A DNA stretch of 64,000 nucleotides, from the NCBI RefSeq assembly GCF_900631955.1, contig NZ_UZWD01000023.1:124001-188000 (forward strand), read 5' to 3'. The position numbers and the translations under genes are program-made. The stretch is from Devosia equisanguinis (GTDB lineage Bacteria > Pseudomonadota > Alphaproteobacteria > Rhizobiales > Devosiaceae). The notes below the pieces were generated by a model. It saw only the letters and a program-made list of their open reading frames with translations. It searched no databases and was not told the DNA's origin. Shown here in pieces: positions 5,102 through 23,696 of this stretch (the stretch's first letter is position 1; every line of letters starts with the position of its first letter).

Positions 5102-6988
5102 CTAGTATTTCAGCCAGGCGTGCAGCTCATCGGCCAGCTCCGCCGGCTCGTGATCGGCGCCGTGCAGGACCAGTTCGGGATTGTCCGGCGCCTCGAAGGG
5201 CGAGTCGATGCCGGTGAAATTCTTGATCTCGCCGGCGCGGGCGCGCTTGTAGAGCCCCTTGGGATCGCGAGCCTCGCAGACCGCCAGCGGGGTATCGACA
5301 TAAACCTCGACGAAGTCGATATCGCCGGCGATCTCGCGCGCTAGCCGGCGCTCGTTCTCGAATGGGGAGATAAAGGAAACCAGCACAATCAGCCCGGCAT
5401 CGGCCATCAGCTTGGCCACTTCGGCGACACGGCGAATGTTTTCGACGCGCGCCGCCTCGGTAAAGCCGAGATCGCGGTTGAGGCCATGGCGAACATTGTC
5501 GCCATCGAGAATATAGGCGTGTTTGCCCTCGGCGGTGAGCCGCTTTTCGAGCAGATTGGCGATGGACGACTTGCCGGACCCTGAAAGACCGGTGAACCAG
5601 ACGATGCGTGGCGTCTGGCCTTTCATCTGGGCGCGCACCTGCCGGTTCACGTCGAAGGACTGATAGGTGAGGTTCTGCGCCCGGCGCAGGCCGAACTCGA
5701 TGGTCCCTGCCCCCAGCGTCGCATTCGACAGCCGGTCGATCAGGATAAAGCCACCAGTCCCTGCATTCTCGCCATAGGGATCGAAAGCAATGGGCCGATC
5801 TGTGGCAATGGTCACCGTGCCGACCTCGTTGAGATCGAGCTTGTTGGCAGCCGCCTGCTCCAAAGTGTTGACGTTGGTGCGGAATTTGATGTCGGTGATC
5901 GAGGCCGGAACGGTCTGCGTGCCGAGCTTGAGGAGGTAGGAGCGGCCCTGAAAGGCCGGCTCGTCATGCATCCAGACCAGGCGGGCCTGGAACTGGTTGG
6001 AAAATTCCGGCGTCTGGCCGGGATGAGCGAGCACATCGCCGCGCGACACGTCCACTTCCCGGTCCAGCACCAGCGTCACGGCCTCGCCCGCAATGGCGCG
6101 ATCCAGGGCGCCGTCCAGCGTGACGATGCGCGCGATCTGGGCTGGTTTGCGGGAAGCGGCGATCAGCACCTCATCGCCGACGCGCACGCTGCCCGAAGCG
6201 ACGGTGCCAGAAAATCCGCGGAAATCGAGATCGGGGCGATTGACCCATTGCACCGGGAAACGGAACGGTTTGGCAACGCGGTCCTCGCCCACGGCGATGG
6301 TTTCGAGATAGGGCACCAGCGCCGAGCCGGTAAACCAGGGCGTACGGGCGCTGGGTTTGAGGATATTGTCGCCGCGCAGGGCCGATACCGGCACGGCGGC
6401 GAGTGTCTTGAATCCCAGCGGCGCGGCAAAGGCCTGGTAGTCAGCCACGATGCGATCGAACACCGCCTGATCGTAATCGACGAGATCGATCTTGTTGACC
6501 ACCAGCACCACATGCTTCACCCCGATCAGCGACAGGATGAAGGAGTGCCGCCGCGTCTGCGTCAGCACGCCCTTGCGCGCGTCGATCAGCACCAGCGCCA
6601 GATCGGCATTGGAAGCGCCGGTGGCCATATTGCGGGTATATTGCTCGTGACCGGGCGTATCGGCGACGATGAACTTGCGCTTGTCGGTGGAGAAGAAGCG
6701 ATAGGCCACGTCGATGGTGATGCCCTGCTCCCGCTCGGCTGAAAGTCCATCGACCAGCAGCGAGAAATCGATGCCTTCGTCGCCGACGATACGGTTGTGG
6801 CTTTCCTTCTTCAGGCTGGCCAGCTGGTCATCGAGCACCATCTGGCTGTCATAGAGCAGCCGGCCGATGAGGGTGGACTTGCCGTCATCGACGCTGCCGC
6901 AGGTGAGAAAGCGCAGCAACGACTTTTCGGTCTGTTGCGCCAGCCAGAGATCGAGATCGGTATCGGGGGTGGCCATGGCGAGGGACAT
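5102..6988 (-). CDS. cysNC: bifunctional sulfate adenylyltransferase subunit 1 / adenylylsulfate kinase
   Basis: A 628-residue fusion. The N-terminal GTPase half (CysN) drives ATP sulfurylase: G1 GSVDDGKST at 31-39, DTPGHEQY at 110-117 and NKID at 165-168. The C-terminal half is an APS kinase (CysC) starting near 459, with Walker [10 protein letters not shown] at about 467-475. Together with CysD it makes APS and then PAPS from sulfate. It follows cysD by one base, so translation is probably coupled. Such fusions are usual in rhizobia, where the nodulation copy is NodQ. No cysH or sulfite reductase gene is nearby. Confidence 0.95.
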
Positions 6989-6989
6989 C

Positions 6990-7907
6990 TCAGAAATAGC
7001 CTTCCTGTTTCTTCTTTTCCATCGAGCCGACGGAGTCGCTGTCGATCAGACGTCCTTCGCGCTCCGAGGTGCGGCTGGCCTGCATTTCCATGATGATCGA
7101 GGGCAGATCGCCGGCATTGGAGCGGATGGCGCCGGTCAGCGGATAACACCCCAGCGTCCGGAAGCGCACCATTTCCTGGCGCGGGGTCTCGCCCGGCTGC
7201 AGCGGCAGCCGATCATCGTCGACCATGATCAGCGTGCCGGACCGTTCCACCACCGGCCGCGACTGGGCGAAGTAAAGGGGCACGATGGGGATGTTCTGCG
7301 AATAGATATAGGTCCAGACGTCGAGCTCGGTCCAATTGGAGATCGGGAAGACGCGCATGCTCTCGCCCGGATTGAGCCGCGTGTTGAAGGTGCGCCAGAG
7401 TTCGGGCCGCTGGTTCTTGGGGTCCCAGGCATGGCTGGCATTGCGGTGGGAAAAGATTCGCTCCTTGGCGCGGGACTTTTCCTCGTCGCGACGGGCGCCG
7501 CCAATGGCCGCATCGTAGCGGCCGGCATTGAGGGCCTGGCGCAGGGCCGCGGTCTTCATGATGTCGGTATAGCGCGAAGAGCCGTGATCGAACGGGTTGA
7601 TGCCGTCGCGCCGGCCCTCCTCATTGGTATGCCTGATAAGCTCGAAGCCGTATTGCTCGGCCATGCGATCGCGGAAGGCGATCATTTCCCGGAACTTCCA
7701 GGTCGTGTCGACATGCAGCAGCGGGAACGGAATCTTGCTGGGAAAGAACGCCTTGCGCGCCAGATGCAGCAGCACGCTCGAATCCTTGCCGACCGAATAC
7801 ATCATCACCGGGCGCTCGAAACTGGCCGCGACCTCGCGGAAGATTTCGATGCTTTCGGCCTCGAGGGCCTCTAAATGGGTCAGCCGGTTCTTGTCCAAGA
7901 TTTCCAC
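6990..7907 (-). CDS. cysD: sulfate adenylyltransferase subunit 2
   Basis: A 305-residue catalytic subunit of ATP sulfurylase, which forms adenylyl sulfate from ATP and sulfate. The PP-loop SVGKDSS lies at residues 38-44, followed by the family block [11 protein letters not shown] and the conserved [14 protein letters not shown] motif. Length and order (cysD then cysNC) match the usual operon. The upstream 286 bp to the tRNA gene must hold the promoter; I saw no recognisable operator there. Confidence 0.95.
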
Positions 7908-8193: not shown

Positions 8194-8269
<76 letters not shown>

Positions 8270-10312: not shown

Positions 10313-10759
10313 TCAGGCGGTTGTGGCGGCGTCGAGGGCGAGGACGCCGGCGGCGGATTGCATGGCGCTGAGGCTGGTATTGTCGAGCACTTCGGCAATG
10401 GCATTGCGCACATCCAGCATCAGGTGGCGCACCCGGCAGGTTTCGATGTCGCAATCATCGCAGGGCTGATAGCGGGTCTTGCTGGCGCACTGGATCGGAG
10501 CCAGCGGCCCATCGAGCACCCGCACCACATGGCCGATCATGATCTCGTGCGGCGGCCGGGCCAGATAATAGCCGCCATACTTGCCCTTGCGCGAATAGAC
10601 GAAGCCGGCATTGCGCAGCTCGGCAAGGATGGCGTCGAGAAACTTCTTGGGGATGTTGTTGGTGGTGGCGATATCGCCAACCATGGCGAGCTCGCCCGGC
10701 TGCAGGGACGACAGATGCCCCAGCGCCTTCAGGCCATATTTCCCCTTGTTCGTCAGCAT
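10313..10759 (-). CDS. Rrf2 family transcriptional regulator (cysteine-rich, possibly Fe-S)
   Basis: A 148-residue regulator from the ATG at 10759; the frame is open to 10828, but MLTNKGKYGLKAL is the standard Rrf2 start. The winged helix-turn-helix covers about residues 1-75, with the family motif SRKGKYGGYYLARPP at 56-70. Cysteines at 91, 100, 103 and 108 occupy the region where IscR, NsrR and RirA bind an Fe-S cluster, although the spacing differs. It stands next to the organosulfur locus. CymR, the Bacillus master regulator of cysteine and S-alkylcysteine genes, is also an Rrf2 protein, so this is the best candidate to bind the three shared operators; that is inference. Confidence 0.85.
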   Translation of the reverse strand: MLTNKGKYGLKALGHLSSLQPGELAMVGDIATTNNIPKKFLDAILAELRNAGFVYSRKGKYGGYYLARPPHEIMIGHVVRVLDGPLAPIQCASKTRYQPCDDCDIETCRVRHLMLDVRNAIAEVLDNTSLSAMQSAAGVLALDAATTA

Positions 10760-11122
10760 CGGCAGTAACCCCGTGGGCGCGGCAATGATGCCGAGCGCGT
10801 ACATAATGTCCATGAAATCGCTTAACAAGAGACTGTTTTGCTCCCCTGGCCGGCTTGGCCGTGCGGGTTTTTCGCGTGAACGGGTTGTCGGAGAATAAGC
10901 GCAACAGCGCAGTGGCGTCAGAACGACCGTCGGGGGCGATGCTCATTAACGGCGCGGCAGAGGCACAATCTTTCCCCGGTCCGGCGCGCGACAAAATCCG
11001 ACCAATGCTCGCTGGCAGCGATGAGAAAAAGCCTTGCCAATTGCAGGGCAGACTAGCCCAGGCCCATTTATCTATAAAAATAGTAGACTTAATGTGAGGC
11101 CCTGTTTTGACGGGAGCTTTCC
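10760..11122. promoter_or_regulatory. divergent promoter region of Rrf2 gene and monooxygenase operon
   Basis: A 363-bp spacer with no coding potential that I can support. Its right end carries the operator at 11071-11087, with TATAAA inside it as a possible -10. The remainder is high-GC sequence with no further copy of the operator and no clear hairpin. Confidence 0.5.
11071..11087. promoter_or_regulatory. operator copy 1 (TCTAY-N7-RTAGA palindrome)
   Basis: TCTAT-AAAAATA-GTAGA, with one mismatch between arms. It starts 52 bp before the start codon of the first monooxygenase gene and overlaps a TATAAA that could be the -10. The flanks TTA and CTTA are shared with copies at 14165 and 20133. 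The position suggests repression. Confidence 0.7.
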
Positions 11123-12133
11123 ATGCCGTTCGACCTCAGCCTGCTCGACAAGAGCCCCATCGCCAAGGGCGAAACCGCCAGCGTCGCGCTGCGCCGCACC
11201 ATTGCCTATGCACAGCGCGCCGAAGCGCTTGGCTACAAGCGGTTCTGGGTCGCCGAGCACCACAATACCCACGAGCTGGCCAGCGCGTCCCCGGAGATTC
11301 TCATCGCCAGCCTGGCGGCATCGACGCGGTCCATTCGGGTGGGTTCCGGCGGGGTGATGCTGCAACATTACAGCCCCTACAAGGTGGCCGAAAACTTCAA
11401 CCTGCTCGAAAGCCTGGCGCCCGGACGGATCGATATCGGCATCGGCAAGGCGCCCGGCGGCCTGCCGCTCTCCACCCGCGCCTTGCAGTCCGGTTATGAC
11501 CAGGCCAGGCGTGGCGATTTCGCCAGCCAATTGCGTGAATTCGATGCCTATCTCGGCGCCGGCAACGACCAGCGCCAGGAGGGGCTGGCGGCAACGCCGA
11601 CACCGACGACATCGAGCGAGAAATTCCTGCTGGGGGCCAGTGTCGAAAGCGCGGCGCTGGCGGCAGAGCTCGGTTGGCAGTTCGTTTTCGCCCGCCACCT
11701 CAATGGCGACGATGTCGCCCTGGCTTCGGCGGTGTCCACCTATCGCGATCTTGCACAGAAGACGCCCATCGTGGCCCTCGCCGTCATCGCGGACCGCGAC
11801 GGTAACAAGGCGCGGGAAACCGCTGCCGGCTTTACCCCGATCCGCGTCACCATCGCCAATGGCCAGAGCGTGACGGTCGGCAGCGAGGAACAGGCGGCCG
11901 AGTTTGCCCGCCAGGCCGGCGTCACCGACTACACCACCGAAAAACGCCAGGCCAATGTGCTGGCCGGCAATGGCGGCGACATCGTCGCCGAGATCGAGGT
12001 GCTGGCCGATCGCTTCGGCATCGACGAGTTCATTCTCGATCTCTTCAACCAGGGCGACAGCCGCCTCGACGCCATCGCGCTGATCGCCGATGCCCGCGAC
12101 GCCGCCCACACCCCGCGTGCCCTTTCAGCCTGA
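11123..12133 (+). CDS. LLM class flavin-dependent oxidoreductase (MsnO8/CmoO-like)
   Basis: A 336-residue bacterial luciferase-like monooxygenase, which would use reduced FMN and oxygen. Typical blocks are RFWVAEHHN near residue 40, SGGVMLQHYSPYKVAE near 75-90 and the LAPGRIDIGIGKAPGG loop at about 97-112. The start follows GGGAG with eight bases between. First gene of a transcription unit headed by operator copy 1; the second monooxygenase follows after 17 bp. In the Bacillus ytm operon the equivalent gene is ytmO (cmoO), acting on S-alkyl-N-acetylcysteine. Substrate here is inferred from context only. Confidence 0.85.
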   Translation: MPFDLSLLDKSPIAKGETASVALRRTIAYAQRAEALGYKRFWVAEHHNTHELASASPEILIASLAASTRSIRVGSGGVMLQHYSPYKVAENFNLLESLAPGRIDIGIGKAPGGLPLSTRALQSGYDQARRGDFASQLREFDAYLGAGNDQRQEGLAATPTPTTSSEKFLLGASVESAALAAELGWQFVFARHLNGDDVALASAVSTYRDLAQKTPIVALAVIADRDGNKARETAAGFTPIRVTIANGQSVTVGSEEQAAEFARQAGVTDYTTEKRQANVLAGNGGDIVAEIEVLADRFGIDEFILDLFNQGDSRLDAIALIADARDAAHTPRALSA

Positions 12134-12150
12134 TTTTCCGGAGACCCCAG

Positions 12151-13485
12151 ATGAGCAAGAACCGCATTCCCTTCGGCCTGATGCTGCATGGTCCGGGCGG
12201 CCATATGAACGCCTGGAAGCATCCCGCCGGCCCCGCAGATGCATCAGTCAATTTCCAGTTCCTGCTGGAGCAGACCCTGAAAGCGGAGGCCGCCGGCATC
12301 GCCTTCGCCTTCGTGGCCGACGGGCTCTATATCAACGAGCAGTCCATTCCCCATTTCCTCAACCGCTTCGAGCCGATTGCCCTGCTGTCGGCGCTGGCGG
12401 CGACGACGAGCACAATTGGTCTCGTTGGCACGCTTTCGACCTCCTATAGCGACCCCTTCACCGTCGCGCGCCAGTTCGGCTCCATCGACCTGATCAGCAA
12501 TGGCCGTGCCGGCTGGAATGCTGTGACCTCGCCCCTCGAAGGCTCGGCCCGCAACCATGGCCGGGTGCAGCATCCCGATCACGCCCTGCGCTACGAGATC
12601 GCCGGCGAGCATATCGAGATCGTCAAGGGCCTCTGGGACAGCTGGGACGACGATGCCTTCCCGCGCGACCGCAATACCGGGCGCTTCGCCGACTTCGCCA
12701 AGCTGCATCGCCTCAATTTCAAGGGCAAGTTCCACTCGGCTGAAGGGCCGCTCAACATCCAGCGCTCGCCACAGGGGCAGACCGTGCTGTTCCAGGCTGG
12801 TGGCTCGGTGGCAGGCATTGATCTGGCGGGCCTGCACGCCGACGCCGTGTTTGCCGCCTCCGGCTCCATCGAGGAAAACCGGGTGCTGACGCAAAAGCTC
12901 AAGCAGAGCGCGGTGGCCCATGGTCGTGGTGCCGATGCGCTCAAGGTCTTCCCGGGTATCGGCGTTATCGTGGGCTCGACCGAGGAAGAGGCGGAGCGAA
13001 AGTATCAGGAGATCGCCGGCCTCGTGAATATCAACGAGGCGCTGGCCTATCTCGGGCGCTATTTCGACCACCACGATTTCAGCCAGTATGAGCTGGACGC
13101 CCCCTTCCCCGAACTCGGCGATATCGGCCGCGAGAATTTCCAGTCCGGCACCGACAAGATCAAGGCGCGGGCCAAGGAGCTGGGCCAGAGCCTGCGCGAC
13201 GTTGCGCTGGAACAGACCACGCCGCGCAGCGAGTTCCACGGCACACCCCAACATATCGCCGACCGGATCGAGGCCTGGGTGGATAGCGGCGCGGCCGATG
13301 GCTTCGTGCTGGGCTTCCCGGTCTCGGCGGCGGGCTGGGCGGATTTCGAGGAGCACGTCCTGCCGGTCCTCGAACAGCGCGGTCGTCATGTCCGCGAACA
13401 GGTCGGCACCACGCTGCGCGACCATCTCGGCCTGCCCTTCCGCGAAAGCCGCTACGCCCTGCCTGCCGAAAAGGCGGCGGGCTGA
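12151..13485 (+). CDS. NtaA/SnaA/DszA family FMN-dependent monooxygenase
   Basis: A 444-residue enzyme of the other luciferase-like branch, the large subunit type of two-component monooxygenases. Diagnostic blocks are GLMLHGPGGHMNAWKHP at the N-terminus, STSYSDPFTVARQFGSID near 95-112, SNGRAGWNAVTSP near 115-127, and FQAGGS and SGSIEENR in the second half. It needs FMNH2 from a separate reductase; one is encoded at 19459. The Bacillus counterparts are YxeK (2-succinocysteine) and YtnJ/CmoJ (S-alkylcysteine). Related enzymes also attack sulfones, nitrilotriacetate and dibenzothiophene sulfone, so the substrate is not fixed. Confidence 0.88.
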   Translation: MSKNRIPFGLMLHGPGGHMNAWKHPAGPADASVNFQFLLEQTLKAEAAGIAFAFVADGLYINEQSIPHFLNRFEPIALLSALAATTSTIGLVGTLSTSYSDPFTVARQFGSIDLISNGRAGWNAVTSPLEGSARNHGRVQHPDHALRYEIAGEHIEIVKGLWDSWDDDAFPRDRNTGRFADFAKLHRLNFKGKFHSAEGPLNIQRSPQGQTVLFQAGGSVAGIDLAGLHADAVFAASGSIEENRVLTQKLKQSAVAHGRGADALKVFPGIGVIVGSTEEEAERKYQEIAGLVNINEALAYLGRYFDHHDFSQYELDAPFPELGDIGRENFQSGTDKIKARAKELGQSLRDVALEQTTPRSEFHGTPQHIADRIEAWVDSGAADGFVLGFPVSAAGWADFEEHVLPVLEQRGRHVREQVGTTLRDHLGLPFRESRYALPAEKAAG

Positions 13486-13552
13486 CCACCGCAGCGGCGG
13501 CGGGCCGAGGGTCTGCCGCCGCGTCTCCCTGACCCGATGCCGAGGCTCCGCC

Positions 13553-14101
13553 ATGACCGAGCGCTTTATCCATACCAGTGCCGACGACCCCATCGCCCTG
13601 CCCCTCGTCGAGCAGCTCACCTACGAATATCAGAGCCGCTATGGCGATTATTTCGAGGAAGGCGGGGCGGCGGTGGAGATGAACCGCTATCCGCCCGAGC
13701 GCTTCGGCGCGCCTGACGGGGCTTTCGTGCTGTTGCTGCGCAACGACACCCCGATCGCCGGCGGGGCGTTCATGCGCTATGACGACACCACCGCCGAGCT
13801 CAAGCGCGTCTGGACCGATCGCGACCATCGCCGCCAGGGCCTGGCGCGAAAAGTGCTGGTGGAGCTCGAAGAACAGGCGATCCGGCTCGGCTATACCCGC
13901 CTTTATCTCACCACCGGCTTCCGCCAGCCCGAAGCCCGCGCCCTCTATCTGCGCAGCGGTTACCGGGCGCTGTTCGATCTCGAGGCCGAGCCGGAAACCA
14001 TCCAGATCCTGGCATTTGAAAAGCAGCTGCTGCCCGTGACGGCCGGGCTTCTTCCCGGTGGAAATGGCAATGCGCTTCAGCCTCTTGCGGCGGGCAATTA
14101 G
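13553..14101 (+). CDS. GNAT family N-acetyltransferase (SnaB/YxeL-like by context)
   Basis: A 182-residue acetyl-CoA-dependent acetyltransferase. The acetyl-CoA loop is RRQGLARKVL, preceded by AELKRVWTDRDH and followed by the GFRQPEARALYLRSGY helix of the fold. The start is the ATG at 13553; the frame is open much earlier, but that part overlaps the monooxygenase gene. It is 67 bp after that gene. In the Bacillus pathways a GNAT acetylates the amino group of S-substituted cysteine before oxygenation, which fits this position. A role in detoxification cannot be excluded. Confidence 0.8.
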   Translation: MTERFIHTSADDPIALPLVEQLTYEYQSRYGDYFEEGGAAVEMNRYPPERFGAPDGAFVLLLRNDTPIAGGAFMRYDDTTAELKRVWTDRDHRRQGLARKVLVELEEQAIRLGYTRLYLTTGFRQPEARALYLRSGYRALFDLEAEPETIQILAFEKQLLPVTAGLLPGGNGNALQPLAAGN

Positions 14102-14164
14102 TTTCCGCCAACCCTAAAACTCAGAATGGCGTCACTTCCCGACGGCGTCGGTGACGACATAATA

Positions 14165-14181
14165 TCTACTAAATCTGTAGA
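14165..14181. promoter_or_regulatory. operator copy 2 (TCTAC-N7-GTAGA palindrome)
   Basis: A perfect inverted repeat TCTAC-TAAATCT-GTAGA ending 15 bp before the ATG of the transporter gene, so it would also block initiation. With flanks it matches the copy at 20133 at 22 of 24 positions by my count. Confidence 0.75.
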
Positions 14182-14196
14182 CTAAAGGTGCAAATC

Positions 14197-15969
14197 ATGG
14201 CCTCCATCACCGACACTGGCATTGAAGCGCATGAGCGGTCGGCGCCGCGCGACCTGCAAAGGCTCAAGATCGTGCCCGCCCGTCATCCCTGGCGCGTCGC
14301 CGGCACGATCTTTGCGGCTGTGGTCATCGCCATAACGCTGCATTCCATCTTCACCAATGAGCGCTGGGGCTGGGCGGTGTTCGCCCAGTATTTCTTCTCC
14401 GAACCGGTGCTCGCTGGGCTCGGCCGCACACTGCTGCTCACCGGCATCTCGGCAGTGATCGGCTTCCTGCTCGGTGGCTTGCTGGCCTTCGCGCGGGTAT
14501 CGAAATCGCCGCTGCTGTCCGGCCTGTCATGGGGCTATATCTGGCTGCTGCGTTCGGTGCCGCTGATCGTGCTGCTGCTGGTGCTCAACAATCTGGGCTA
14601 CCTCTATGCCAGCATCAATATCGGCGTGCCGTTTACCGATATTCTCTGGGCGCAGTTCGACACGGTGCAGACCCTGAGCCCGTTCTGGGTCGCCATTATC
14701 GGCCTCAGCCTCAACCAGGCGGCGTTTTCGTCGGAGATCATCCGCGGCGGCATTCTCTCGGTCGACCAGGGCCAGCATGAGGCGGCTGCAGCTCTGGGAC
14801 TCAGCCGCTGGCGCCAGGCGAGCCACATCGTGCTGCCCCAGGCCATGCGCGCCATCCTGCCCTCGGGTTTCAACGAAATCATCGGCCTGGCCAAGGCCAC
14901 CTCCATTGTCTACGTCCTGGCCCTGCCCGAACTGTTCTACACCGTGCAGGTGATCTACCGGCGCAATCTCGAAGTCATCCCGCTGCTAATGGTCGCCACT
15001 GTCTGGTATCTGGTCATCATGGTGGTGCTGTCGGGCTTCCAGTATCTGATCGAGCAGTATTATTCGCGCGGCGCCAATCGCGAGTCCCTGCCGCCGCTGG
15101 TGGACCGACTGTTCCGCGCCATTGCCCGCAGAGATCGAGACGTCGCGCCCGTCGCCGCCCCCCTCTCCGCCAATGCACAGCGCCAGTCCGGCTTTGCCAC
15201 CGATCGGGTCGGCGGCGAGATTGCCATCCACGCAGTCAACAAGTTCTTCGGCACCAATAAGGTGCTGGACGGCGTCGATCTCACGGTTGGCTCGGGTGAA
15301 GTGGTCGCCATTATCGGCCCCTCCGGCGCCGGCAAATCGACGCTGTTGCGCACGATCAATCACCTGGAGCGCGTCGATACCGGTATCGTCGCCATCGACG
15401 GGGAACTGATCGGTTACGAGCGCCGCGGCGACGCGCTGCACGAACTCAAGGAGCCGGCGATCCGCCGCCGCCGCGCCGGTGTCGGCATGGTGTTCCAGAA
15501 TTTCAATCTCTTCCCGCATCTGACCGCCCTTGAAAACGTCATCGAAGCGCCGGTTTCGGTGGCAGGCGTGCCGCGCGACGAGGCGATTGCCCAGGCGCGC
15601 GACCTGCTGGCCCGCGTCGGCCTGGCCGACAAGGCAGATGCCTATCCGCGCCATCTCTCGGGTGGCCAGCAACAGCGTGTCGCCATCGCCCGGGCGCTGG
15701 CCCTCCGCCCCAAGGTGCTGCTGTTCGATGAGCCGACCTCCGCGCTCGATCCCGAACTGGTGGGCGAAGTACTCGACGTGATCAAGGAACTGGCCAAGTC
15801 CGGCACCACCCTTGTAATCGTCACCCACGAAATCGGCTTTGCCCGCGAAGTCGCCGACCGCATCGTCTTCATGGAAGGCGGGCGGGTGATCGAAATCGCG
15901 CCACCCGAACGGCTGTTCAGCGCGCCGACCCAGACGCGGACGCGCGAGTTCCTGGCCAAGGTCCTCTAG
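14197..15969 (+). CDS. amino-acid-type ABC transporter, fused permease and ATP-binding protein
   Basis: A 590-residue fusion. Residues 1 to about 310 form a HisM-type permease with several membrane segments and the EAAAALGLSRWRQASHIVLP loop. Residues from about 345 form the ATPase: Walker A GPSGAGKST, signature LSGGQQQR and Walker B VLLFDEPTSALDP. The ATG at 14197 with AAAGGTG upstream is preferred to the in-frame GTG at 14188. The family imports polar amino acids and cystine-like compounds. It heads the second unit of the locus and is followed by two binding-protein genes. The Bacillus systems encode permease and ATPase separately. Confidence 0.9.
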   Translation: MASITDTGIEAHERSAPRDLQRLKIVPARHPWRVAGTIFAAVVIAITLHSIFTNERWGWAVFAQYFFSEPVLAGLGRTLLLTGISAVIGFLLGGLLAFARVSKSPLLSGLSWGYIWLLRSVPLIVLLLVLNNLGYLYASINIGVPFTDILWAQFDTVQTLSPFWVAIIGLSLNQAAFSSEIIRGGILSVDQGQHEAAAALGLSRWRQASHIVLPQAMRAILPSGFNEIIGLAKATSIVYVLALPELFYTVQVIYRRNLEVIPLLMVATVWYLVIMVVLSGFQYLIEQYYSRGANRESLPPLVDRLFRAIARRDRDVAPVAAPLSANAQRQSGFATDRVGGEIAIHAVNKFFGTNKVLDGVDLTVGSGEVVAIIGPSGAGKSTLLRTINHLERVDTGIVAIDGELIGYERRGDALHELKEPAIRRRRAGVGMVFQNFNLFPHLTALENVIEAPVSVAGVPRDEAIAQARDLLARVGLADKADAYPRHLSGGQQQRVAIARALALRPKVLLFDEPTSALDPELVGEVLDVIKELAKSGTTLVIVTHEIGFAREVADRIVFMEGGRVIEIAPPERLFSAPTQTRTREFLAKVL

Positions 15970-16058
15970 CAAAACCGCAATCCCCGCCATCCCCAACCTT
16001 AATGCCGGTGAGCGGCAGGATGGCGCACGTCCCCAAAACCCCATCAAAGGTATAGAAA

Positions 16059-16991
16059 ATGCTTCCCAGACGATCCTTCCTTGCGCTCGCCAGCGCCGCC
16101 CTGTTGCTCACCGCCGCCCCTGTCGCGGTCTTCGCCCAGGCCTTCGACCTCAGCCCGGATCCTGCCAACCGGCTGCATGCCGAAAAGGTCGATGCGATCG
16201 CCGCACAGCTGCCGGCGGATTTCAAATATGCCAAGGACGGCGTGCTCAGCATCGCCATCGCCGCCGGTGCGCCGCCGATCTCCACCTATGCCACCGATGG
16301 CGCCACCGTAGTCGGCTTCGACCCGGATCTGGGCCGGCTGGTGGGCGAAGTTTTGGGCCTGCCGGTCGAAATCGTACCGATTGCCTGGATCGACTGGCCG
16401 CTGGGCCTCACCGCCGGCAAATATGACGCCGTCATTTCCAATGTCGGGGTGACCGAGGAGCGCAAGGAGAAGTACGACTTCTCCAGCTATCGCAAGGGCG
16501 TACACGGCTTCTACGTCAAGGCCGACAGCCCCATCACCGCTATTGCCGAGCCCAAGGACATTGCCGGGCTGCGCGTGATTACTGCCTCTGGCACCAACCA
16601 GGAGCGCATCACGCTCGAATGGGATCGGCTGAACCGGGAAGCCGGCCTGGCCCCCGTGGAAATCCAGTACTACGACGATGACGCCGCCGCCTCGCTGGCT
16701 ATCGCGTCGGGGCGCGCCGATGTCGAGCTCAACCCCAACGCGCCACAAGCCTACAAGGCCGCGATTACCGGTGAGACCAAACTGGTCGGCACCATCAGCT
16801 CCGGCTGGCCCAACCCGGCCGAGGTCGGCGTCACCACACGCAAGGATAGCGGGCTGGCTGAGCCGGTAACGGCCGCCATCAACCATCTGATCGATACCGG
16901 CCTCTACGCCCAATTGCTGGAGCAGTGGAACCTCACGCCCGAAGGCGTCGAGCAGTCGCAGACCAATCCGCCGGGGCTGCCAAAGCCCTGA
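16059..16991 (+). CDS. amino-acid ABC transporter substrate-binding protein (family 3), copy A
   Basis: A 310-residue periplasmic binding protein with a twin-basic-led signal (MLPRRSFLALASAALLLTAA, cleavage near residue 26). SBP_bac_3 blocks are seen: GFDPDLGRLVGEVLGLP, WPLGLTAGKYDAVISN, TEERKEKYDFSSY and DIAGLRVITASGTNQE. It lies 89 bp after the fused transporter. Its C-terminal TNPPGLPKP is shared with copy B at 18156, and the two are roughly two-thirds identical by eye. The ligand is probably an S-substituted cysteine or its acetyl derivative; inferred from neighbours. Confidence 0.88.
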   Translation: MLPRRSFLALASAALLLTAAPVAVFAQAFDLSPDPANRLHAEKVDAIAAQLPADFKYAKDGVLSIAIAAGAPPISTYATDGATVVGFDPDLGRLVGEVLGLPVEIVPIAWIDWPLGLTAGKYDAVISNVGVTEERKEKYDFSSYRKGVHGFYVKADSPITAIAEPKDIAGLRVITASGTNQERITLEWDRLNREAGLAPVEIQYYDDDAAASLAIASGRADVELNPNAPQAYKAAITGETKLVGTISSGWPNPAEVGVTTRKDSGLAEPVTAAINHLIDTGLYAQLLEQWNLTPEGVEQSQTNPPGLPKP

Positions 16992-17060
16992 GCGCATGGC
17001 GCGGGCGGTTCTCTTCCCTGGCCGCTCGCGCCCCACTCCTTCCAGCATTGCGAGGAAAAA

Positions 17061-18091
17061 ATGACCCAGGAGATCACCAGGATCGGGTTTCTCACACCCG
17101 GCAATTTCGACAATGCCAACCCCTATCCCGGCATCGAAGGCACGCTGGAGCTGATTGGTTTCGGCGAGCGGCTGGGCTTTGACAGCGCCTGGGTGCGCCA
17201 GCGCCATCTCGAGCCCGGCATCGGCTCGGCCGCAGTATTTCTCGCCGCCGCCAGCCAGCGTACCAGCCGCATCGAACTGGGTTCAGCAGTGATCCAGATA
17301 GGCTATGAAAGTCCGTTCCGGCTGGCCGAAGACCTATCCATGGTCGATGTGCTGTCGCGCGGCCGGCTCAATGTCGGCCTTAGCGCCGGCGTGCCGCCGC
17401 ACAGCCAGCTCATCGGCCATCTCGTCCATGACGGCGACTGGACCCAGCACGATCTCAGTCACCAGCGCATCGCTCGTTTCCGCAACCATCTCGATGTCGC
17501 CTATCTCGGCGACGACGACATTTTCGTGCAGACGCCCTTCGGCCGCAGCGGCCGCGACTGCAGCCGCATGCTGCGGGGCTGGCGGATCGCCTCTGGTATG
17601 GCGCGGGCTCGCAGCTTTCGGCACGCTGGGCCGGCGAAAACGGCTTCAACCTGTTGACCGGAAACGTCATCTCGGGCGAAGGCACCGACGATTTTCATGC
17701 GGCCCAGATCAACCTCATCTCCACCTGGCGTGCGGCGCTTGGCGACAAGGCTGGGCGCGTGGCGCTGGGCCGGGTAATCGTCCCCACCGATTCAGCGCCC
17801 GCTTCCCGCATTGCGAAATACCAGGCCTATGCGACCGGCCGCCTCGAGCGGACGCTGAGGCCACAGGGCGAACGCCGAACGCTGTTCCCGCGCGATCTCG
17901 TCGGGCCGGCCGAACAGATCGTTGAATGGCTGCGCGATGACCCGGTCCTGCCGCTGGTGGACGAATTGCGGCTCGAGCTGCCGTATGAATTCGCGCTCTC
18001 GGAATATGAGCAGATCCTTACCGACACGATCACCCGCATTGCGCCTGCTCTCGGCTGGTCCGCGCAAGCGTCCGCCATCGCCGCCGAATAA
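17061..18091 (+). pseudogene. LLM class flavin-dependent oxidoreductase, disrupted by a frameshift
   Basis: The N-terminal part (17061 to about 17540) reads in one frame: TRIGFLTPGNFDNANPYPGI, then VRQRHLEPG and SRGRLNVGLSAGVPP. The C-terminal part, from about 17565 to 18091, reads in another: LADRLWYGAGSQLSARW, then GFNLLTGNVISGEG and PFE-type tail sequences. The change corresponds to loss of one base, or gain of two, around 17540-17570. A single corrected frame gives about 343 residues, the normal family length. It resembles CmoO-like enzymes, making it a second luciferase-like monooxygenase of the locus. It may be a true pseudogene or a sequence error in GC-rich DNA. Confidence 0.8.
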
Positions 18092-18155
18092 TTCCGGCCC
18101 GGTGCGGGCGCGGCACCGGGTTCGTTCCCTCCCTCACGCGCAAGGACATGACAGA

Positions 18156-19079
18156 ATGAAACACCACGTCAGAGGCTTGCTCACTGGTATCGCCCTCCTC
18201 ACATTGACGAGCGCCGGGCATGCCGCCGAATTCGATATCAGCCCGGAACAGCCCGGACGTCTCAAGGCCGAGCCGAATGCCGAAGCCATCGCTGCCATCC
18301 CGGCCGACTTCAAGTTTGCCGCAGACGGCAAGTTCACCGTCGCGGTGTCGCCCTGGGATCCGCCGATCGCCACCTATGCCACCGACGGCGCCACTGTCGT
18401 CGGTGTCGATCCGGACCTGGCTTCGCTGATCGCGGATTCGCTGGGGCTCGAGCTCAACCTCGTCGCCACCGCCTGGGCCGATTGGCCGCTGGGCGTCACC
18501 TCCGGCAAGTATGACGCCGTGATTTCCAACGTCACCGTCACCGAGGAACGCAAGGAGAAGTTCGATTTCTCCAGCTATCGCCAGGACGTGCTGGGCTTTT
18601 ACGTCCGCACCGACAGCCCGATCCAGGAGATCAAGGAGCCCAAGGACATTGCCGGCCTCAAGGTGATCACCGGCGCGGGCACCAACCAAGAGAAGATCAT
18701 CCTGGAATGGGATCGCCAGAACGTCGCAGCCGGCCTGGCGCCCATCGAGGTGCAGTATTACGACGATAGCGCTGCCAGCACCCTGGCGCTGCAGTCGGGC
18801 CGCGCCGATGTCGAATTCAACCCCAATCCGACATTGTCCTATTCCTCTGCAGTCTCCGGCGACACCCGCCTTGTTGGCGTGCAGAGCGGCGGCTGGCCGG
18901 TCAAGGCCGAAATCGCCGCCACCACTCGCAAGGGCTCGGGCCTGGCCGACGCCATCACTATCGCCATCAACGGGCTGATCGAGAACGGTCTCTACGCCCA
19001 GACGCTGGAACGCTGGAACGTCAGCGCCGAAGCGGTCGAGGCCTCGCAGACCAACCCGCCCGGCCTGCCCAAGAGCTGA
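18156..19079 (+). CDS. amino-acid ABC transporter substrate-binding protein (family 3), copy B
   Basis: A 307-residue exported binding protein, paralogous to the product of 16059. The start at 18156 has AAGGA nine bases upstream and opens a signal peptide (MKHHVRGLLTGIALLTLTSA, cleavage after GHA). Shared blocks include TYATDGATVVG, SGKYDAVISN, TEERKEKFDFSSYR and TNPPGLPK at the end. It differs in the ligand-facing stretch near residue 60 (SPWDPP versus AGAPPI in copy A), so the two may have different ligands. Two binding proteins for one transporter also occur in the Bacillus ytm operon (YtmJ, YtmK). Confidence 0.88.
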   Translation: MKHHVRGLLTGIALLTLTSAGHAAEFDISPEQPGRLKAEPNAEAIAAIPADFKFAADGKFTVAVSPWDPPIATYATDGATVVGVDPDLASLIADSLGLELNLVATAWADWPLGVTSGKYDAVISNVTVTEERKEKFDFSSYRQDVLGFYVRTDSPIQEIKEPKDIAGLKVITGAGTNQEKIILEWDRQNVAAGLAPIEVQYYDDSAASTLALQSGRADVEFNPNPTLSYSSAVSGDTRLVGVQSGGWPVKAEIAATTRKGSGLADAITIAINGLIENGLYAQTLERWNVSAEAVEASQTNPPGLPKS

Positions 19080-19144
19080 CCGGCATTTCGGCGACCGGCA
19101 CCGCGCCCGGTCGCCGCTTCCCTTCCCAACTTTGAGGCACTGAA

Positions 19145-19400
19145 ATGAACTTGACCGTCCGTACGCTGACGGCAGGGCTGTTTCCGATCTGACCGCCGCC
19201 GCGGACGCCGAGAATAACGTCGTCAGCACCACACTGCTTAACCGAATCTATCAAATTCTGATCTGGGCGTGGCGAAGCCGGCGCTCTGGTGCCCCGGCTG
19301 GCGACGAATGGTTCGCCAAGGATGGCGATCCAACACCTGGATGTTCAAGATCGGCGAGACTGTGGCCTATTCCGACGGCGCTGCCCTTCGCGCTAAATGA
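19145..19400 (+). pseudogene. remnant of a family 5 (peptide-type) binding-protein gene
   Basis: Short pieces of a peptide/nickel-type binding protein are spread over several frames. One reads AADAENNVVSTTLLNRIYQIL, another EAGALVPRLAT, another NTWMFKIGETVAYSDGAALR ending at a stop at 19398. In intact relatives, LVPRLAT-E-W is followed by TWTFKLR-GVKFSDG, so order and spacing fit a single ancestral gene. An early stop and at least two frame changes are needed, and most of the expected 500 residues are absent. The piece follows copy B by 65 bp and has a possible start ATG at 19145 after a short leader. Confidence 0.6.
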
Positions 19401-19402
19401 CA

Positions 19403-19437
19403 AGAGCCCGCGCGCCTCCGGGGAGGACGCGGGCTTT
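19403..19437. terminator. bidirectional hairpin terminator
   Basis: AGCCCGCG (19405-19412) pairs with CGCGGGCT (19428-19435), with a second CCTCC/GGAGG stem inside. AA precedes and TT follows the arms. It separates the decayed plus-strand gene from the convergent flavin reductase gene. Confidence 0.7.
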
Positions 19438-19458
19438 GGGGTGGAAGTATCGATTGCG

Positions 19459-20010
19459 CTAGGCGCTGAACGGGTCGCGATTGGGGAGCAATTGCTGGTA
19501 TTGCCCGTTCCAGTAGAGCAAGGGCGACTGGCGGTCGGCGACATCGGCACTGCGCACACGCCCGAACACCAGAGCGTGCGAATGGCGCTCGATGATTTCG
19601 TCGACATCGCAATCGAGCACTGCCAGCGCGGCGCTGAGCCCCAAAACACCACTGTCCAGCTGATCCCAGTCCCAGCCGACATAGCGGTCATTGCCCTTGA
19701 TGCCCCCGCGACCGGCGAAACGGTCCGCCACGCCACTTTGCGCCTCGGTCAGGATATTGACCGCAAAAGAAGCGGTTTCCCGCAAAACCTGCCAGGACGA
19801 CGACGCCTTGTTGAGGCTCACCAGAATGACGGGGGGATCGACGGAAAAGGATGACACCGATGTGGCGGTGAACCCGGTCCGCTGCGGACCATTGCCGACG
19901 GTGATGACGCTGACGGCACCGGCCAGATTGCGCATGGCCAGCTTGAAGGCGCTGACATCAACCGCCGGTTTGTTGGCCGGCAGGAAGTTTGCGATATCGA
20001 CGATCGACAC
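19459..20010 (-). CDS. flavin reductase family protein (FMN reductase for the monooxygenases)
   Basis: A 183-residue protein of the flavin reductase-like (split barrel) family. Blocks include FKLAMRNLAGAVSVIT, GFTATSVSSFSVDPPVILVSLNK, SFAVNILTEAQSGVADRFAG and the late HALVFGRV strand. Such enzymes reduce free FMN with NAD(P)H and supply partner monooxygenases. The start is a GTG at 20010 preceded by GAGAGG. It is transcribed toward the end of the locus and diverges from the DUF3088 gene, with operator copy 3 between them, so it is probably co-regulated. Confidence 0.88.
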   Translation of the reverse strand: MSIVDIANFLPANKPAVDVSAFKLAMRNLAGAVSVITVGNGPQRTGFTATSVSSFSVDPPVILVSLNKASSSWQVLRETASFAVNILTEAQSGVADRFAGRGGIKGNDRYVGWDWDQLDSGVLGLSAALAVLDCDVDEIIERHSHALVFGRVRSADVADRQSPLLYWNGQYQQLLPNRDPFSA

Positions 20011-20132
20011 GAGACCTCTCCAAAACTGCGCGCCATGATTGGCGTTTGGAAAGAGTAGCGGCCCCTTCCCGGAGCCGCGAGATCGGCGCGGAGCACAGTT
20101 TGTTACCGGACGGCAGAGGCGGAAAATATATA

Positions 20133-20149
20133 TCTACTAAATCTATAGA
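20133..20149. promoter_or_regulatory. operator copy 3 (TCTAC-N7-ATAGA palindrome)
   Basis: TCTAC-TAAATCT-ATAGA, one mismatch between arms. It lies between the divergent flavin reductase and DUF3088 genes. TATAAT at 20152-20157 immediately follows and could be the -10 for the rightward gene, placing the operator in its -35/-10 spacer. Confidence 0.72.
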
Positions 20150-20205
20150 CTTATAATCATCGCACTTTACTCTGGCCCTACACCCGTTTCGCACACTCCT
20201 CTTTG

Positions 20206-20580
20206 GTGACCGCCTTGGCTGACGACACTCTCTATCTCATCGCCCCCGATTTCCATGTTCCCGGCCGCGAGGACGGGCCGTTCGTGTGCCCGTTCTGCAA
20301 CCAGATCGAGGGGCTTCTGGCCAGCTTTCCGCAGCTGGCGCTCGATATCGAGGTGGTTCGCGTGCCCTTCCCCCGCCCACGCGCCGCCGTAGTGGCCCTG
20401 GTGGGCGAAGAGAACCAGGCGCTGCCGCTACTGATACTGGGCGAAGACCCGCCGGCCGATGCGCACCAGTACGGCGACATCCGTTTTATCGCAGATACCG
20501 ACCGCATTCTCGACCTGCTTGCCACTCGCCACGGCTTCCCGCGCCTCCTCCGCCCACTGACGCAACCGGTGGAGGCCTAG
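20206..20580 (+). CDS. DUF3088 domain-containing protein (CxxC, thioredoxin-like)
   Basis: A 124-residue protein with CPFC at residues 28-31 and the DUF3088 blocks LYLIAPDF, VVRVPFPRPRAAVVALVGEENQALP and TDRILDLLATRHGFPR. No ATG is available: GTG at 20206 is taken, with TTG at 20203 or 20215 as alternatives and no strong ribosome binding site. The CxxC near the N-terminus of an alpha/beta protein suggests a thioredoxin-like fold. The Bacillus ytm operon also has a glutaredoxin-like member (YtnI/CmoI), so a redox step on a sulfur intermediate is a reasonable guess. Confidence 0.75.
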   Translation: MTALADDTLYLIAPDFHVPGREDGPFVCPFCNQIEGLLASFPQLALDIEVVRVPFPRPRAAVVALVGEENQALPLLILGEDPPADAHQYGDIRFIADTDRILDLLATRHGFPRLLRPLTQPVEA

Positions 20581-20595: not shown

Positions 20596-21276
20596 TTACA
20601 CCATCAGCGTCTTGTCGAGCCAGAGCGCGAATCCGCCCTTGAAGGCATTGGCATTGTCGCCTCGCCGGGCCTTGGGTGGCAGCGCATCGAGCCTCGTGAC
20701 ATTGCCGCCGCCGATGACCACATAGTCCGGCTCGAGCGCGGCGGTCAGCTGCTCCACGGCGGCAAAGACGTGCTTCTGCCATTTGTCATGGCCGCGCTGT
20801 TCGAGGCTGGCTTCGCCGAGATAGTCCTCATAGGTCCGGCCCTTGCGGTAAGGCAGATGCGCCAGTTCCATAGGCTGGGCGACATTGTCGACGATCATGG
20901 CGGCACCCAGCCCCGTGCCGAGGCCGAGGAACAGCATGCGGCCACCCTCATAGCTGCCGATGGCCTGCATCAGCGCATCATTGACGATGCGGACCGGCTT
21001 GCCAAAACGCTTGGCGAAGTCGAACCCGACCCAGCCGGGGGCCAGATTATGCGGATCGCTCAGGACCTTGTCGTGGACCACCGGGCCCGGATAGCCGATG
21101 GCCAGGACGTCAAAGTCGAGACCCGCGGCGAGCTTTTCGACGGCGTCGGCCATGCCGGCGGCGTTCATTTTCGGTCCGGAGACAGCCTTGCGCTCCTCAC
21201 CTCCCGCGCTGGTGCGGATTTTGACATGCGAGCCGCCGATATCGATGGCGAGGACGGTGAGGTTGTCAGTGTCCAT
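20596..21276 (-). CDS. ROK family sugar kinase (polyphosphate glucokinase-like)
   Basis: A 226-residue kinase with the phosphate-binding [15 protein letters not shown] at residues 8-22, the GYPGPV loop near 60 and [13 protein letters not shown] near 115-127. It lacks the ROK zinc-binding cysteine cluster and any DNA-binding domain, which fits the compact PpgK-type glucokinases. Its start overlaps the end of zwf by 11 bp, indicating translational coupling. In an operon with a glucosidase, zwf and a 6-phosphogluconate dehydrogenase it would make glucose 6-phosphate. Whether ATP or polyphosphate is the donor cannot be told. Confidence 0.78.
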
Positions 21277-22681
21277 GGACGATCACCCCTTCCTTGCCGG
21301 GGTCGACCCAGCCGCCAGGCGGTTCGAACCCGGCCATGGCCTCGACCGGCCCCCAGCTGCCAGGCTTATAGGGCGCCGGATCGGTCCGCCGCGCCAGGAC
21401 GGGATCGACAATGCGCCAGGCGAGTTCGGAGGCATCCTGGCGGGTGAAGAGCTGGCGCTTGCCGTCCATAGCATCGCCGATCAACCGCTCATAGGGCATC
21501 ATGTCGTCGGTGGTGTCATCGACCGCGTCGAGTTCGACCGGCTCGCCGACCATGTCGCTGCCCGGAGCCTTGCGGCGGGCGCCAATGCCGATCATCACCT
21601 GGGGGCCGACGCGGAAGCGAACATAATTGGCCTGTGACTCGGCCACATCGTCGAACAGGGCCACCGGTGGCTTGCGGAAGCGCACCACCACCTCGGTGGC
21701 GCGGACCGGCAATTGCTTGCCGGCGCGGATGTAGAAGGGCACATCCTTCCAGCGCCAGGTATCGACGAAAAGGCGAACGGCAGCGAAGGTCTCGGCCTTG
21801 GAATCAGGGGCGACGCCGGGCTCGTCCAGATAGCCCTCGAACTGGCCGCGCACCACATCGGCCTCGGTCAACGGCCGCATGGCCTTGAGAATCTGCACCT
21901 TTTCGTCACTGAGATCGTCGGAAGCGCTGGTGACCGGAGGCTCCATGGCCAGGAGCAGCAGCACATTGACCAGATGGTTCTGGATCACGTCGCGAATACA
22001 GCCGACCTCGTCGTAGAACTTGCCACGACCGGCAATGCCGAAATCCTCGGCCATGGTGATCTGCACGCTCTCGACATAGGTGCGGTTCCACACCGGCTCG
22101 AGAAAGCCATTGGCGAAGCGGAAATAGAGCAGGTTCTGCACCGCTTCCTTGCCGAGGAAATGGTCGATGCGGAACACCGCCTCTTCGGGAAAGGCACGAT
22201 GCAGGACGGCGTTCAACGCCTGGGCGGATGCAAGGTCATGGCCGAAGGGTTTTTCCACCATCAGCCGGGACTTCTTGGCGATACCGGCTGATTTGAGGGC
22301 GTCGATGACGGTGCCGAACAGCGAGGGCGGGATGGCCAGGTAGTAGAGCGGATGCGCGGCGCCGCCCAGCGCCGTGCGCAGTTTTTCGAAGGTCTCCGCA
22401 TTCTTGTAGTCGCCGCTGACATAGCGCAACTGCGCCTTGAAGCGGGCGAACACGGCTTCATCGACGCTGCCGAACTGCTTGATGATGCCGCTGCGGGCGC
22501 GCTCGGCCAGCTTGTCGATATCCCAGTCGTCAAAGGCGACCCCGACAATAGGTTCGTTGAGATGGCCGCGCCGCACCATCTGGTAGAGCGAGGGCAGGAT
22601 CATCTTGTGCGCGAGGTCGCCGGTGACGCCGAACACCACCAGCGCGTCGGAGCGATCGAGCAATGGCTTGGACATGCTCAT
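21266..22681 (-). CDS. zwf: glucose-6-phosphate 1-dehydrogenase
   Basis: A 471-residue enzyme that oxidises glucose 6-phosphate to 6-phosphogluconolactone. The nucleotide-binding GVTGDLAHK lies at residues 18-26, and the substrate-site RIDHFLGKE at 171-179, followed by [12 protein letters not shown]. Length is close to the usual 480-490. It overlaps the upstream dehydrogenase gene by four bases (ATGA) and the downstream kinase gene by 11. There is no pgl gene for the intervening lactonase in the operon. Confidence 0.95.
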
Positions 22682-23676
22682 TTCTCCTGATGGCCGCCGA
22701 AGGAATAGCGCATGGCCGACAAGAGCTTGTTGGCGAACTCGTCATTGTCGCGCGAGGCAAAGCGATTGAACAGCGCCGAGGAAAGCACGGGCGCGGGCAC
22801 GCCGGTTTCGATGGCCGCCTGCAAGGTCCAACGGCCCTCGCCGGAATCGGAGACCTTGCCGCCGAAGCGCGACAGCGTGGCGTCGTCCTTGAGCACCTGC
22901 GCGGTCAGGTCGAGCAGCCAGGAGCCGATGACGCTGCCATGGCGCCACACTTCGGTGACGGCGGCAAGATCGATGTCGAAGCGGTAATATTCGGGATTGT
23001 GCAGCGGCGCGGTTTCGGCGTCAGCATCGCGCTTTTCCTTGCCCGCATCGGCTGCTTTGAGAATGTTGAGGCCTTCGGCATAGGCGGCCATGATGCCGTA
23101 TTCGATACCGTTATGAACCATCTTGACGAAGTGGCCGGCGCCGGCCGGACCGCAATGCAGATAGCCCTGCACCGCTGTATCGGTTGTCCCAGACGTGCCG
23201 CCGGAGCCATCCGCCCCCGGAGCCAGCGAGGCCAGAATGGGATCGAGCGTTTTGACGGGCTCCGTGCTGCCGCCGATCATCAGGCTATAGCCGCGCTCCA
23301 GCCCCCAGACGCCGCCACTGGTGCCGACATCGACATAGGCGACGCCCTTGGGCGCCAGCTCGGTGGCGAGGTCCACGGCATCGCGATAGTTGGAATTACC
23401 ACCATCGATCAGGATATCGCCCGGCGCCATCTGGGCGGCGATCTCGCGGGCAATGCGCCCGGTGATCGCGGCAGGCAGCATCATCCAGACGGCGCGCGGG
23501 CCATTGAGCTTGCTCAGCAGATCGCCCATATCGGTGGCGCCGATAGCGCCCTCGGCCACCAGGGCGGCAATATTGGCCGGATTGACGTCATAGACCACGC
23601 ATTGGTGTCCCGCCCGCATCAGGCGCCGCACCATATTGGCGCCCATACGGCCCAAACCGATCATTCCCAGCTGCAT
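22678..23676 (-). CDS. 6-phosphogluconate dehydrogenase, short NAD-type
   Basis: A 332-residue dehydrogenase with the Rossmann motif [14 protein letters not shown] at residues 3-16 and [10 protein letters not shown] and [19 protein letters not shown] in the substrate region. The catalytic-helix segment [12 protein letters not shown] is present. It is of the short class (about 300-330 residues), usually NAD-dependent and decarboxylating, unlike the long NADP-dependent enzyme encoded at the right end of this window. It lies between the glucosidase and zwf genes. Annotation pipelines name it gnd or yqeC-type. Confidence 0.9.
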
Positions 23677-23696
23677 AGAAAGCTCCTGTTTGACGC

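Follow-up and report, generated by a model that had tools for sequence, protein, structure and literature searches.

Bacillus subtilis makes use of YtmI, YtnI, YtlI and CymR in its ytm system, and CmoI serves as the reducer of the sulfenic acid in the Bacillus pathway. The chemistry of CmoO and CmoJ is known from this pathway, in which the sulfenic acid must be reduced after the CmoJ step, and its wide occurrence in soil bacteria has already been stated (PMC10863075), so that the kind of pathway considered here is a known one. Two accounts (PMC9706529, PMC12757645) describe the same logic of acetylation, oxygenation and deacetylation for the S-(2-succino)cysteine pathway encoded by the yxe/scm genes of B. 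subtilis, whose YxeK protein is a homologue of CmoJ (PMC10863075). We analysed a locus at positions 10313-20580 of a 64-kb stretch (the window) from the 4.13 Mb draft genome of Devosia equisanguinis, which an original prediction, made from the letters alone, had taken for an alphaproteobacterial version of the ytm salvage cluster. The locus encodes, in order, an Rrf2 family regulator (minus strand), a CmoO-like and a CmoJ-like luciferase-like monooxygenase (LLM), a GNAT acetyltransferase, a fused permease/ATPase, a first solute-binding protein, a frame-broken third LLM, a second binding protein, a flavin reductase (minus strand) and a DUF3088 protein. Every product listed in the prediction was recovered by Pfam or NCBIfam profile matches. 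Our results make it probable that the locus functions in the salvage of sulfur from S-substituted cysteines, as a proteobacterial variant of the Bacillus Cmo pathway.

The CmoJ-like protein (12151-13485, plus strand), a predicted FMN-dependent C-S monooxygenase of the CmoJ/YtnJ type, matched the model TIGR03860 with 469.2 bits (cut-off 279.7) and shares 51% identity with YtnJ/CmoJ of B. subtilis. In a midpoint-rooted tree of 33 sequences, from which YxeK was left out, a 16-member set was split off with a support of 99/99; it comprises the window protein, ten proteobacterial relatives, YtnJ, the Niallia protein, two Paenibacillus proteins and one Pantoea protein, and 14 congeneric paralogues fall outside it. 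The positions of three long branches, namely two paralogues from the same genome and a second Pantoea protein, are unsure in this tree. Among the solved structures that the CmoJ-like protein matched, YxeK did not appear. By its sequence kinship the CmoJ-like protein falls with the CmoJ/YtnJ proteins of Bacillota, as would be expected of a CmoJ orthologue. Its upstream neighbor (11123-12133, plus strand) belongs to the CmoO-type FMN-dependent monooxygenases of the MsnO8 family (TIGR03558, 316.9 bits; cut-off 166.95). The CmoO-like protein of Niallia matched it with 43.7% identity (245 bits) versus 33.8% (159 bits) for the other MsnO8 protein of the genome, and that of Paenibacillus with 42.4% (250 bits) versus 34.6% (179 bits). 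On these scores the window oxygenase is the best counterpart of Bacillota CmoO in the genome, and it thus qualifies as a predicted CmoO orthologue adjoining CmoJ. The two genes are 17 bases apart, with no glutaredoxin-type CmoI between them.

To survey the conservation of this neighborhood we used 80 named loci, which are the best 80 of 533 CmoJ matches, so that the counts describe close relatives (at least 65% identity); neighbors were counted within 9 kb. These loci come mostly from Hyphomicrobiales and Burkholderiales. A CmoO-like gene lies directly 5' of CmoJ in 77 of the 80, a related GNAT is found in 79 and a fused permease/ATPase in 77, and both a relative of the third LLM (of the intact type) and a pair of binding proteins were detected in 71. 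Sixteen paralogous NtaA-family loci (14 congeneric and two from the same genome) served as a control, with flanks of about 1.5 kb per side, as opposed to the 9 kb of the cluster counts. None of these 16 loci had a CmoO-like gene, a cluster GNAT or a cluster M20 gene (E<=1e-10) within such flanks. Given the recurrence of CmoO, GNAT and permease/ATPase in 77-79 of the 80 loci, and the absence of CmoO, GNAT and M20 from the shorter paralogue flanks, the gene grouping is not due to chance. Within the genus, a CmoJ orthologue (at least 78% identity) is present in 16 of 75 genomes, that of the window included; 14 of the congener loci were usable, and a fifteenth (L058) lies on a broken-off contig. 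Several genes of L056 (CmoO-like, permease/ATPase and third LLM) and the permease/ATPase of L055 match in two or more frames, reflecting decay or sequencing error.

The original prediction had also remarked on the want of a deacetylase, whose step it placed elsewhere in the genome, and in most relatives such a gene fills the gap. The place that most relatives give to an M20 deacetylase gene is taken up in the window by a spacer of 67 bases without a gene (13486-13552). An M20 amidohydrolase gene stands exactly between CmoJ and GNAT in 9 of the 14 usable congener loci, the other five resembling the window in lacking it, and directly 3' of CmoJ in 68 of the 80 named loci. The best solved relative of the linked congener protein is B. 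subtilis YxeP (257 bits), identified with ScmP and shown to be an N-acetylcysteine deacetylase (PMC12757645). Among the five congeners without a linked gene, one (G035) has elsewhere in its genome an M20 relative of 69% identity, in whose match one stop was flagged; in the remaining four the M20 paralogues reach at most 52% and are of a sort also present in the three M20-bearing genomes searched.

The GNAT protein (13553-14101, plus strand; PF00583, 56.5 bits), a predicted S-alkylcysteine N-acetyltransferase, has weak matches as its closest solved relatives (39 bits). The transporter protein of 593 residues (14197-15969, plus strand) combines the permease and ATPase domains (PF00528 and PF00005) of an amino-acid ATP-binding cassette (ABC) importer; its best NCBIfam model is that of TcyN-type cystine ATPases, with 327.8 bits against a cut-off of 406. 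Together with two family 3 solute-binding proteins (16059-16991 and 18162-19079, both plus strand; PF00497, 86.7 and 85.8 bits), it makes up an ABC importer of the amino-acid family. The flavin reductase (19459-20010, minus strand; PF01613, 125.6 bits) is the predicted supplier of reduced FMN (FMNH2). We considered whether its gene was frameshifted, with an overlapping frame downstream, and rejected this; the single open frame of 183 residues covers the whole Pfam domain and nearly the full length of the congener proteins. No trace of a gene remnant was found by blastn (E<=1e-3) for the 379 bases between the second binding protein and this gene (19080-19458), which were compared with all fetched loci but four from the window's own stretch.

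The third LLM (17061-18091, plus strand), described as broken in the original prediction, proved to be truly frame-broken: when it was compared with an unbroken congener protein, residues 1-161 aligned in one frame and residues 162-344 in another. The intact congener protein scored 108 bits with the LLM_KPN_01858 model (cut-off 413). Across the 14 usable congener loci we found one unbroken match in nine, a broken one in two and none in three. As it is thus lost or broken in five of the 14, the third LLM is accessory in Devosia. For its role we can offer guesses only, such as the second stereochemistry of the sulfoxide or the oxidation of the released aldehyde.

The CmoO-like genes of congeners share an upstream palindrome, TATCTAY-N8-TAGACTTA, and three operator-like copies were detected in the window. 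These lie upstream of the CmoO-like gene, before the CmoO-CmoJ-GNAT genes (TATCTATAAAAATAGTAGACTTA, 11069-11091, no mismatches), upstream of the permease/ATPase, before the transporter genes (TATCTACTAAATCTGTAGACTAA, 14163-14185, one mismatch), and between the flavin reductase and the DUF3088 gene (TATCTACTAAATCTATAGACTTA, 20131-20153, no mismatches). At up to three mismatches, the three window sites compare with 0.17 expected, and this number was reached in none of 100 shuffles. No further site with one mismatch or none occurs in the whole 4.1 Mb genome, and this suggests that the units flanked by the three copies form one regulon. At the same threshold, the 75 genomes of the genus contain 32 sites in 18 genomes versus 7 control sites, with the palindrome present in 15 of the 16 genomes that have the cluster and in 3 of the 59 others. 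The palindrome before the CmoO-like gene is conserved in congeners and in other Hyphomicrobiales: its core, TCTAY-N8-TAGA, was found without mismatch in the 130 bases preceding the CmoO-like gene in 38 of 78 loci (for those from outside Devosia, 35 of 73) versus 1 of 1,560 block-shuffled sequences. Most Burkholderiales in the examined set are without this core. The site before the permease/ATPase has a counterpart with 2-3 mismatches at the same place in L060-L065. In other Devosia, the palindrome precedes flavin reductases placed elsewhere (L167, L168, L181, L183), an alkanesulfonate-type LLM (L172, which scored 215 bits against a cut-off of 510 when scanned, with L177, L185 and L186 similar to it in sequence), an unassigned 313-residue protein (L180, L182) and a family 3 binding protein (L188); the site in L166 looks like a chance occurrence.

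A candidate for the protein that recognizes these sites is the adjacent Rrf2 family regulator (10313-10759, minus strand; PF02082, 118.8 bits), a probable repressor of the locus. It had been likened to CymR; the CymR model (NF047409) is indeed its best specific Rrf2 model, but at 86.2 bits it remains below the cut-off of 195. An orthologue of at least 70% identity occurs in 25 of the 75 genus genomes, and is found in 15 of the 16 with the cluster versus 10 of the 59 without it (Fisher p ~2e-8), and in 16 of the 18 palindrome-bearing genomes versus 9 of the 57 others (Fisher p ~3e-8), although these p-values overstate the case, given that the genomes are relatives of one another and themselves supplied the palindrome. 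The regulon is probably that of the adjacent Rrf2 protein, which would bind the palindrome. Our search of the open-access literature, with subscription literature mostly outside its reach, turned up no paper on this operator or on the rhizobial/Devosia cluster.

The last gene of the locus (20203-20580, plus strand) encodes a DUF3088 protein (PF11287, 124.8 bits) with a CPFC motif, which we predict to be a redoxin resembling thioredoxins and Omega-class glutathione transferases. A structure model (predicted local distance difference test score 88.5, predicted template modelling score 0.81) displays a strand-helix-strand-helix-strand-strand-helix order, as in thioredoxin-like folds, and Foldseek searches with it returned Omega-class glutathione transferases and thioredoxins as the best matches (best E 4.3e-3, probability 1.00). 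By sequence, there was no match to solved proteins (best E 1.3). All 14 aligned proteins retain the first cysteine of the motif. The modelled protein thus has a thioredoxin-like fold with a candidate active-site cysteine, in line with a 2010 account that already put this family in the thioredoxin-like clan (PMC3091736). Of the 80 named loci, 14 have a DUF3088 gene no more than 9 kb from CmoJ, and ten of these loci are outside Devosia. Based on the modelled fold, the cysteine, the shared palindrome and this recurrence, we propose a role for the protein at the sulfenic acid step, where it could stand in for the CmoI glutaredoxin. A more far-reaching proposal can be put forward only tentatively, and it joins two parts. 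In its first part, the DUF3088 protein of these clusters would be a dedicated N-acetylcysteine sulfenic acid reductase and a non-orthologous replacement of CmoI, for which the first cysteine would suffice in many lineages. In its second part, an Rrf2 repressor would use TCTAY-N8-TAGA as its operator and run an FMNH2-dependent organosulfur regulon in Hyphomicrobiales, one that unites the salvage of S-alkylcysteines with a shared flavin reductase and, for some Devosia, with a monooxygenase of the alkanesulfonate type.

Set beside the B. subtilis ytm/ytn (Cmo) system, the locus is alike in its adjoining CmoO and CmoJ kin, a GNAT, an amino-acid ABC transporter and a flavin reductase, and also in the M20 gene, if most relatives of the Devosia locus are considered. 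It differs in lacking a linked M20 gene, in having DUF3088 and not a glutaredoxin, in the fusion of permease and ATPase, in its third LLM, in an unrelated-looking GNAT and in an Rrf2 protein accompanied by the locus palindrome. The original prediction of a ytm-like cluster therefore stands as regards the kinship of both oxygenases, their context and the M20 gene of relatives, but not as regards the Rrf2 protein, which falls short of the CymR cut-off, and the GNAT, which is not recognizable as an orthologue of the Bacillota one. The yxe/scm pathway resembles the locus in that YxeP/ScmP is the nearest solved protein to the M20 of the relatives, and differs in having YxeK alone in place of two oxygenases (CmoO and CmoJ). 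Among other Bacillota, Paenibacillus cellulosilyticus (L156) has a row of LysR, GNAT, binding protein, two permeases, ATPase, CmoO, M20 and CmoJ; it shares the CmoO/CmoJ kin, the GNAT, the M20 and an amino-acid transporter, and differs in its LysR and in its separate permeases and ATPase. The row of Niallia taxi (L140) consists of an FMN_red-family flavin reductase, a CmoO-like protein, an 85-residue glutaredoxin and CmoJ, and thus shares the CmoO/CmoJ kin and the flavin (FMN) reductase, with a glutaredoxin in place of the DUF3088 of Devosia. A further transporter solution is seen in Pantoea vagans (L142), in which a relative of CmoJ and another gene of the NtaA type accompany a GNAT, an M20 and an ABC transporter annotated without an amino-acid type.

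These comparisons allow a pathway to be proposed. The ABC transporter would import S-substituted cysteines from soil, and the GNAT would N-acetylate them. The CmoO-type enzyme would then convert the thioether to a sulfoxide and the CmoJ-type enzyme would cleave the C-S bond of the latter to give an aldehyde and N-acetylcysteine sulfenic acid, both with FMNH2 that the flavin reductase supplies. The DUF3088 redoxin would reduce the sulfenic acid and an M20 deacetylase would free the cysteine, in the D. equisanguinis strain necessarily by way of an unlinked paralogue, with all three transcription units being controlled by the Rrf2 protein through the shared palindrome. Several observations weigh against this scheme. 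No linked M20 gene exists in the 64-kb window, the M20 paralogues of the genome are at best 51, 48, 46 and 40% identical to the linked congener protein, and the lead of YxeP over other M20 amidohydrolases as its closest solved relative is slight (257 versus 250, 235 and 227 bits). A tblastn search (E<=1e-3) with the GNAT of the window found nothing in the stretches from Paenibacillus, Niallia and Pantoea; the protein is not recognizably related to the Bacillota enzyme by sequence and may have been recruited independently. Only 4 of the 80 named loci have the flavin reductase and 2 an Rrf2 relative linked to CmoJ, so these are not regular members of the cluster. When two mismatches are allowed, the genome has 4 palindrome sites versus 5 for the reversed control pattern. 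The fold matches of DUF3088 are weak, none reaching E<=1e-3, and of the 14 relatives only 6 retain the second cysteine, the others having Ser (4) or Gly (4) in its place. To these can be added the name of the best solved match of the CmoJ-like protein, a nitrilotriacetate monooxygenase entry with 571 bits.

This last match, and the breadth of the NtaA/DmoA family model to which the CmoJ-like protein belongs, would favor another organosulfur or chelator substrate for the oxygenases, such as a sulfonate, a sulfone or nitrilotriacetate. However, YtnJ, at 489 bits, stands well above the lower-scoring solved structures (254 bits, DszA 223, DmoA 213, riboflavin lyase 191 and EDTA monooxygenase 182), and the neighbors are an amino-acid type transporter, a GNAT and an M20. 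A placement with nitrilotriacetate or sulfone enzymes only, which the original prediction had held to count against it, was looked for and not seen, and on scores and neighbors we set such substrates aside as very improbable. A YxeK-type route, in which the CmoJ-like enzyme alone would oxygenate N-acetyl-S-(2-succino)cysteine and the CmoO-like enzyme would do something else, draws on the homology of YxeK and CmoJ and on the GNAT, ABC transporter and M20 deacetylase that yxe loci also contain (PMC9706529). We consider it unlikely, given that a CmoO-like gene directly precedes CmoJ in nearly all of the named loci, whereas the yxe gene list in PMC9706529 has one monooxygenase only.

The binding proteins raise the further alternative that the transporter takes up N-blocked ligands, such as mercapturates or other N-acyl S-conjugates, with the oxygenases acting on imported N-acetyl substrates and the GNAT being secondary. 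In all 150 cluster binding proteins (two from the window and 148 from L060-L139) an arginine is kept at the carboxylate site, which we take from other family 3 proteins to bind the alpha-carboxylate, and the aspartate that presumably holds the alpha-ammonium group is replaced by Pro (117), Val (31) or Met (2). A second alignment reproduced this pattern in 148 of 148, and Asp is present in 6 of 10 non-cluster controls. Yet the Paenibacillus counterpart and the other 4 of the 10 controls also have no aligned Asp, so that its replacement is not specific; it is a lead towards N-blocked ligands and falls short of proving them. With a GNAT in 79 of the 80 loci, we regard this alternative as improbable. 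There is likewise little probability that the locus is decaying in the D. equisanguinis strain and no longer yields a complete pathway. The absent M20 and the broken third LLM would fit decay, but all other genes are open and the three palindromes are kept, five of the 14 usable congener loci also lack a linked M20 and three lack the third LLM, whose frame break could be a sequencing error. Furthermore, the B. subtilis deacetylases are 35-50% identical and redundant (PMC12757645), and by this analogy the 51% paralogue could serve as the deacetylase. Sulfur salvage from S-substituted cysteines along the lines of the Cmo pathway thus remains our preferred reading.

Outside the locus, the sulfate-activation genes cysN/C and cysD lie nearby on the minus strand (5102-7907). 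A link to sulfate assimilation was considered and rejected: no cysD or cysN/C matches appeared in the congener stretches and the region upstream of cysD has no palindrome site, for which reasons we take these genes to be chance neighbors. After a tRNA-Thr gene (8194-8269) comes a solitary Rha regulatory gene of phage type (8872-9609), perhaps the trace of an integrated element. On the other side, a single minus-strand run (20596-26099) encodes a ROK protein, glucose-6-phosphate dehydrogenase, 6-phosphogluconate dehydrogenase and a family 15 glycosidase.

Within the literature searched, the new elements are the unit defined by the operator, the connection with DUF3088 and a deacetylase kept by relatives but not by the D. 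equisanguinis strain, an apparent one-genome gap that is filled at the predicted place in relatives. For DUF3088, the proposed role offers a testable function for an uncharacterized domain. The palindrome provides a concrete DNA site, together with a candidate regulator, for organosulfur use in Hyphomicrobiales, and this operator links genes that annotation leaves apart. If the preferred reading holds, a sulfur-salvage pathway of Bacillus would extend to rhizobia and their relatives, among which tractable strains are available for testing it.

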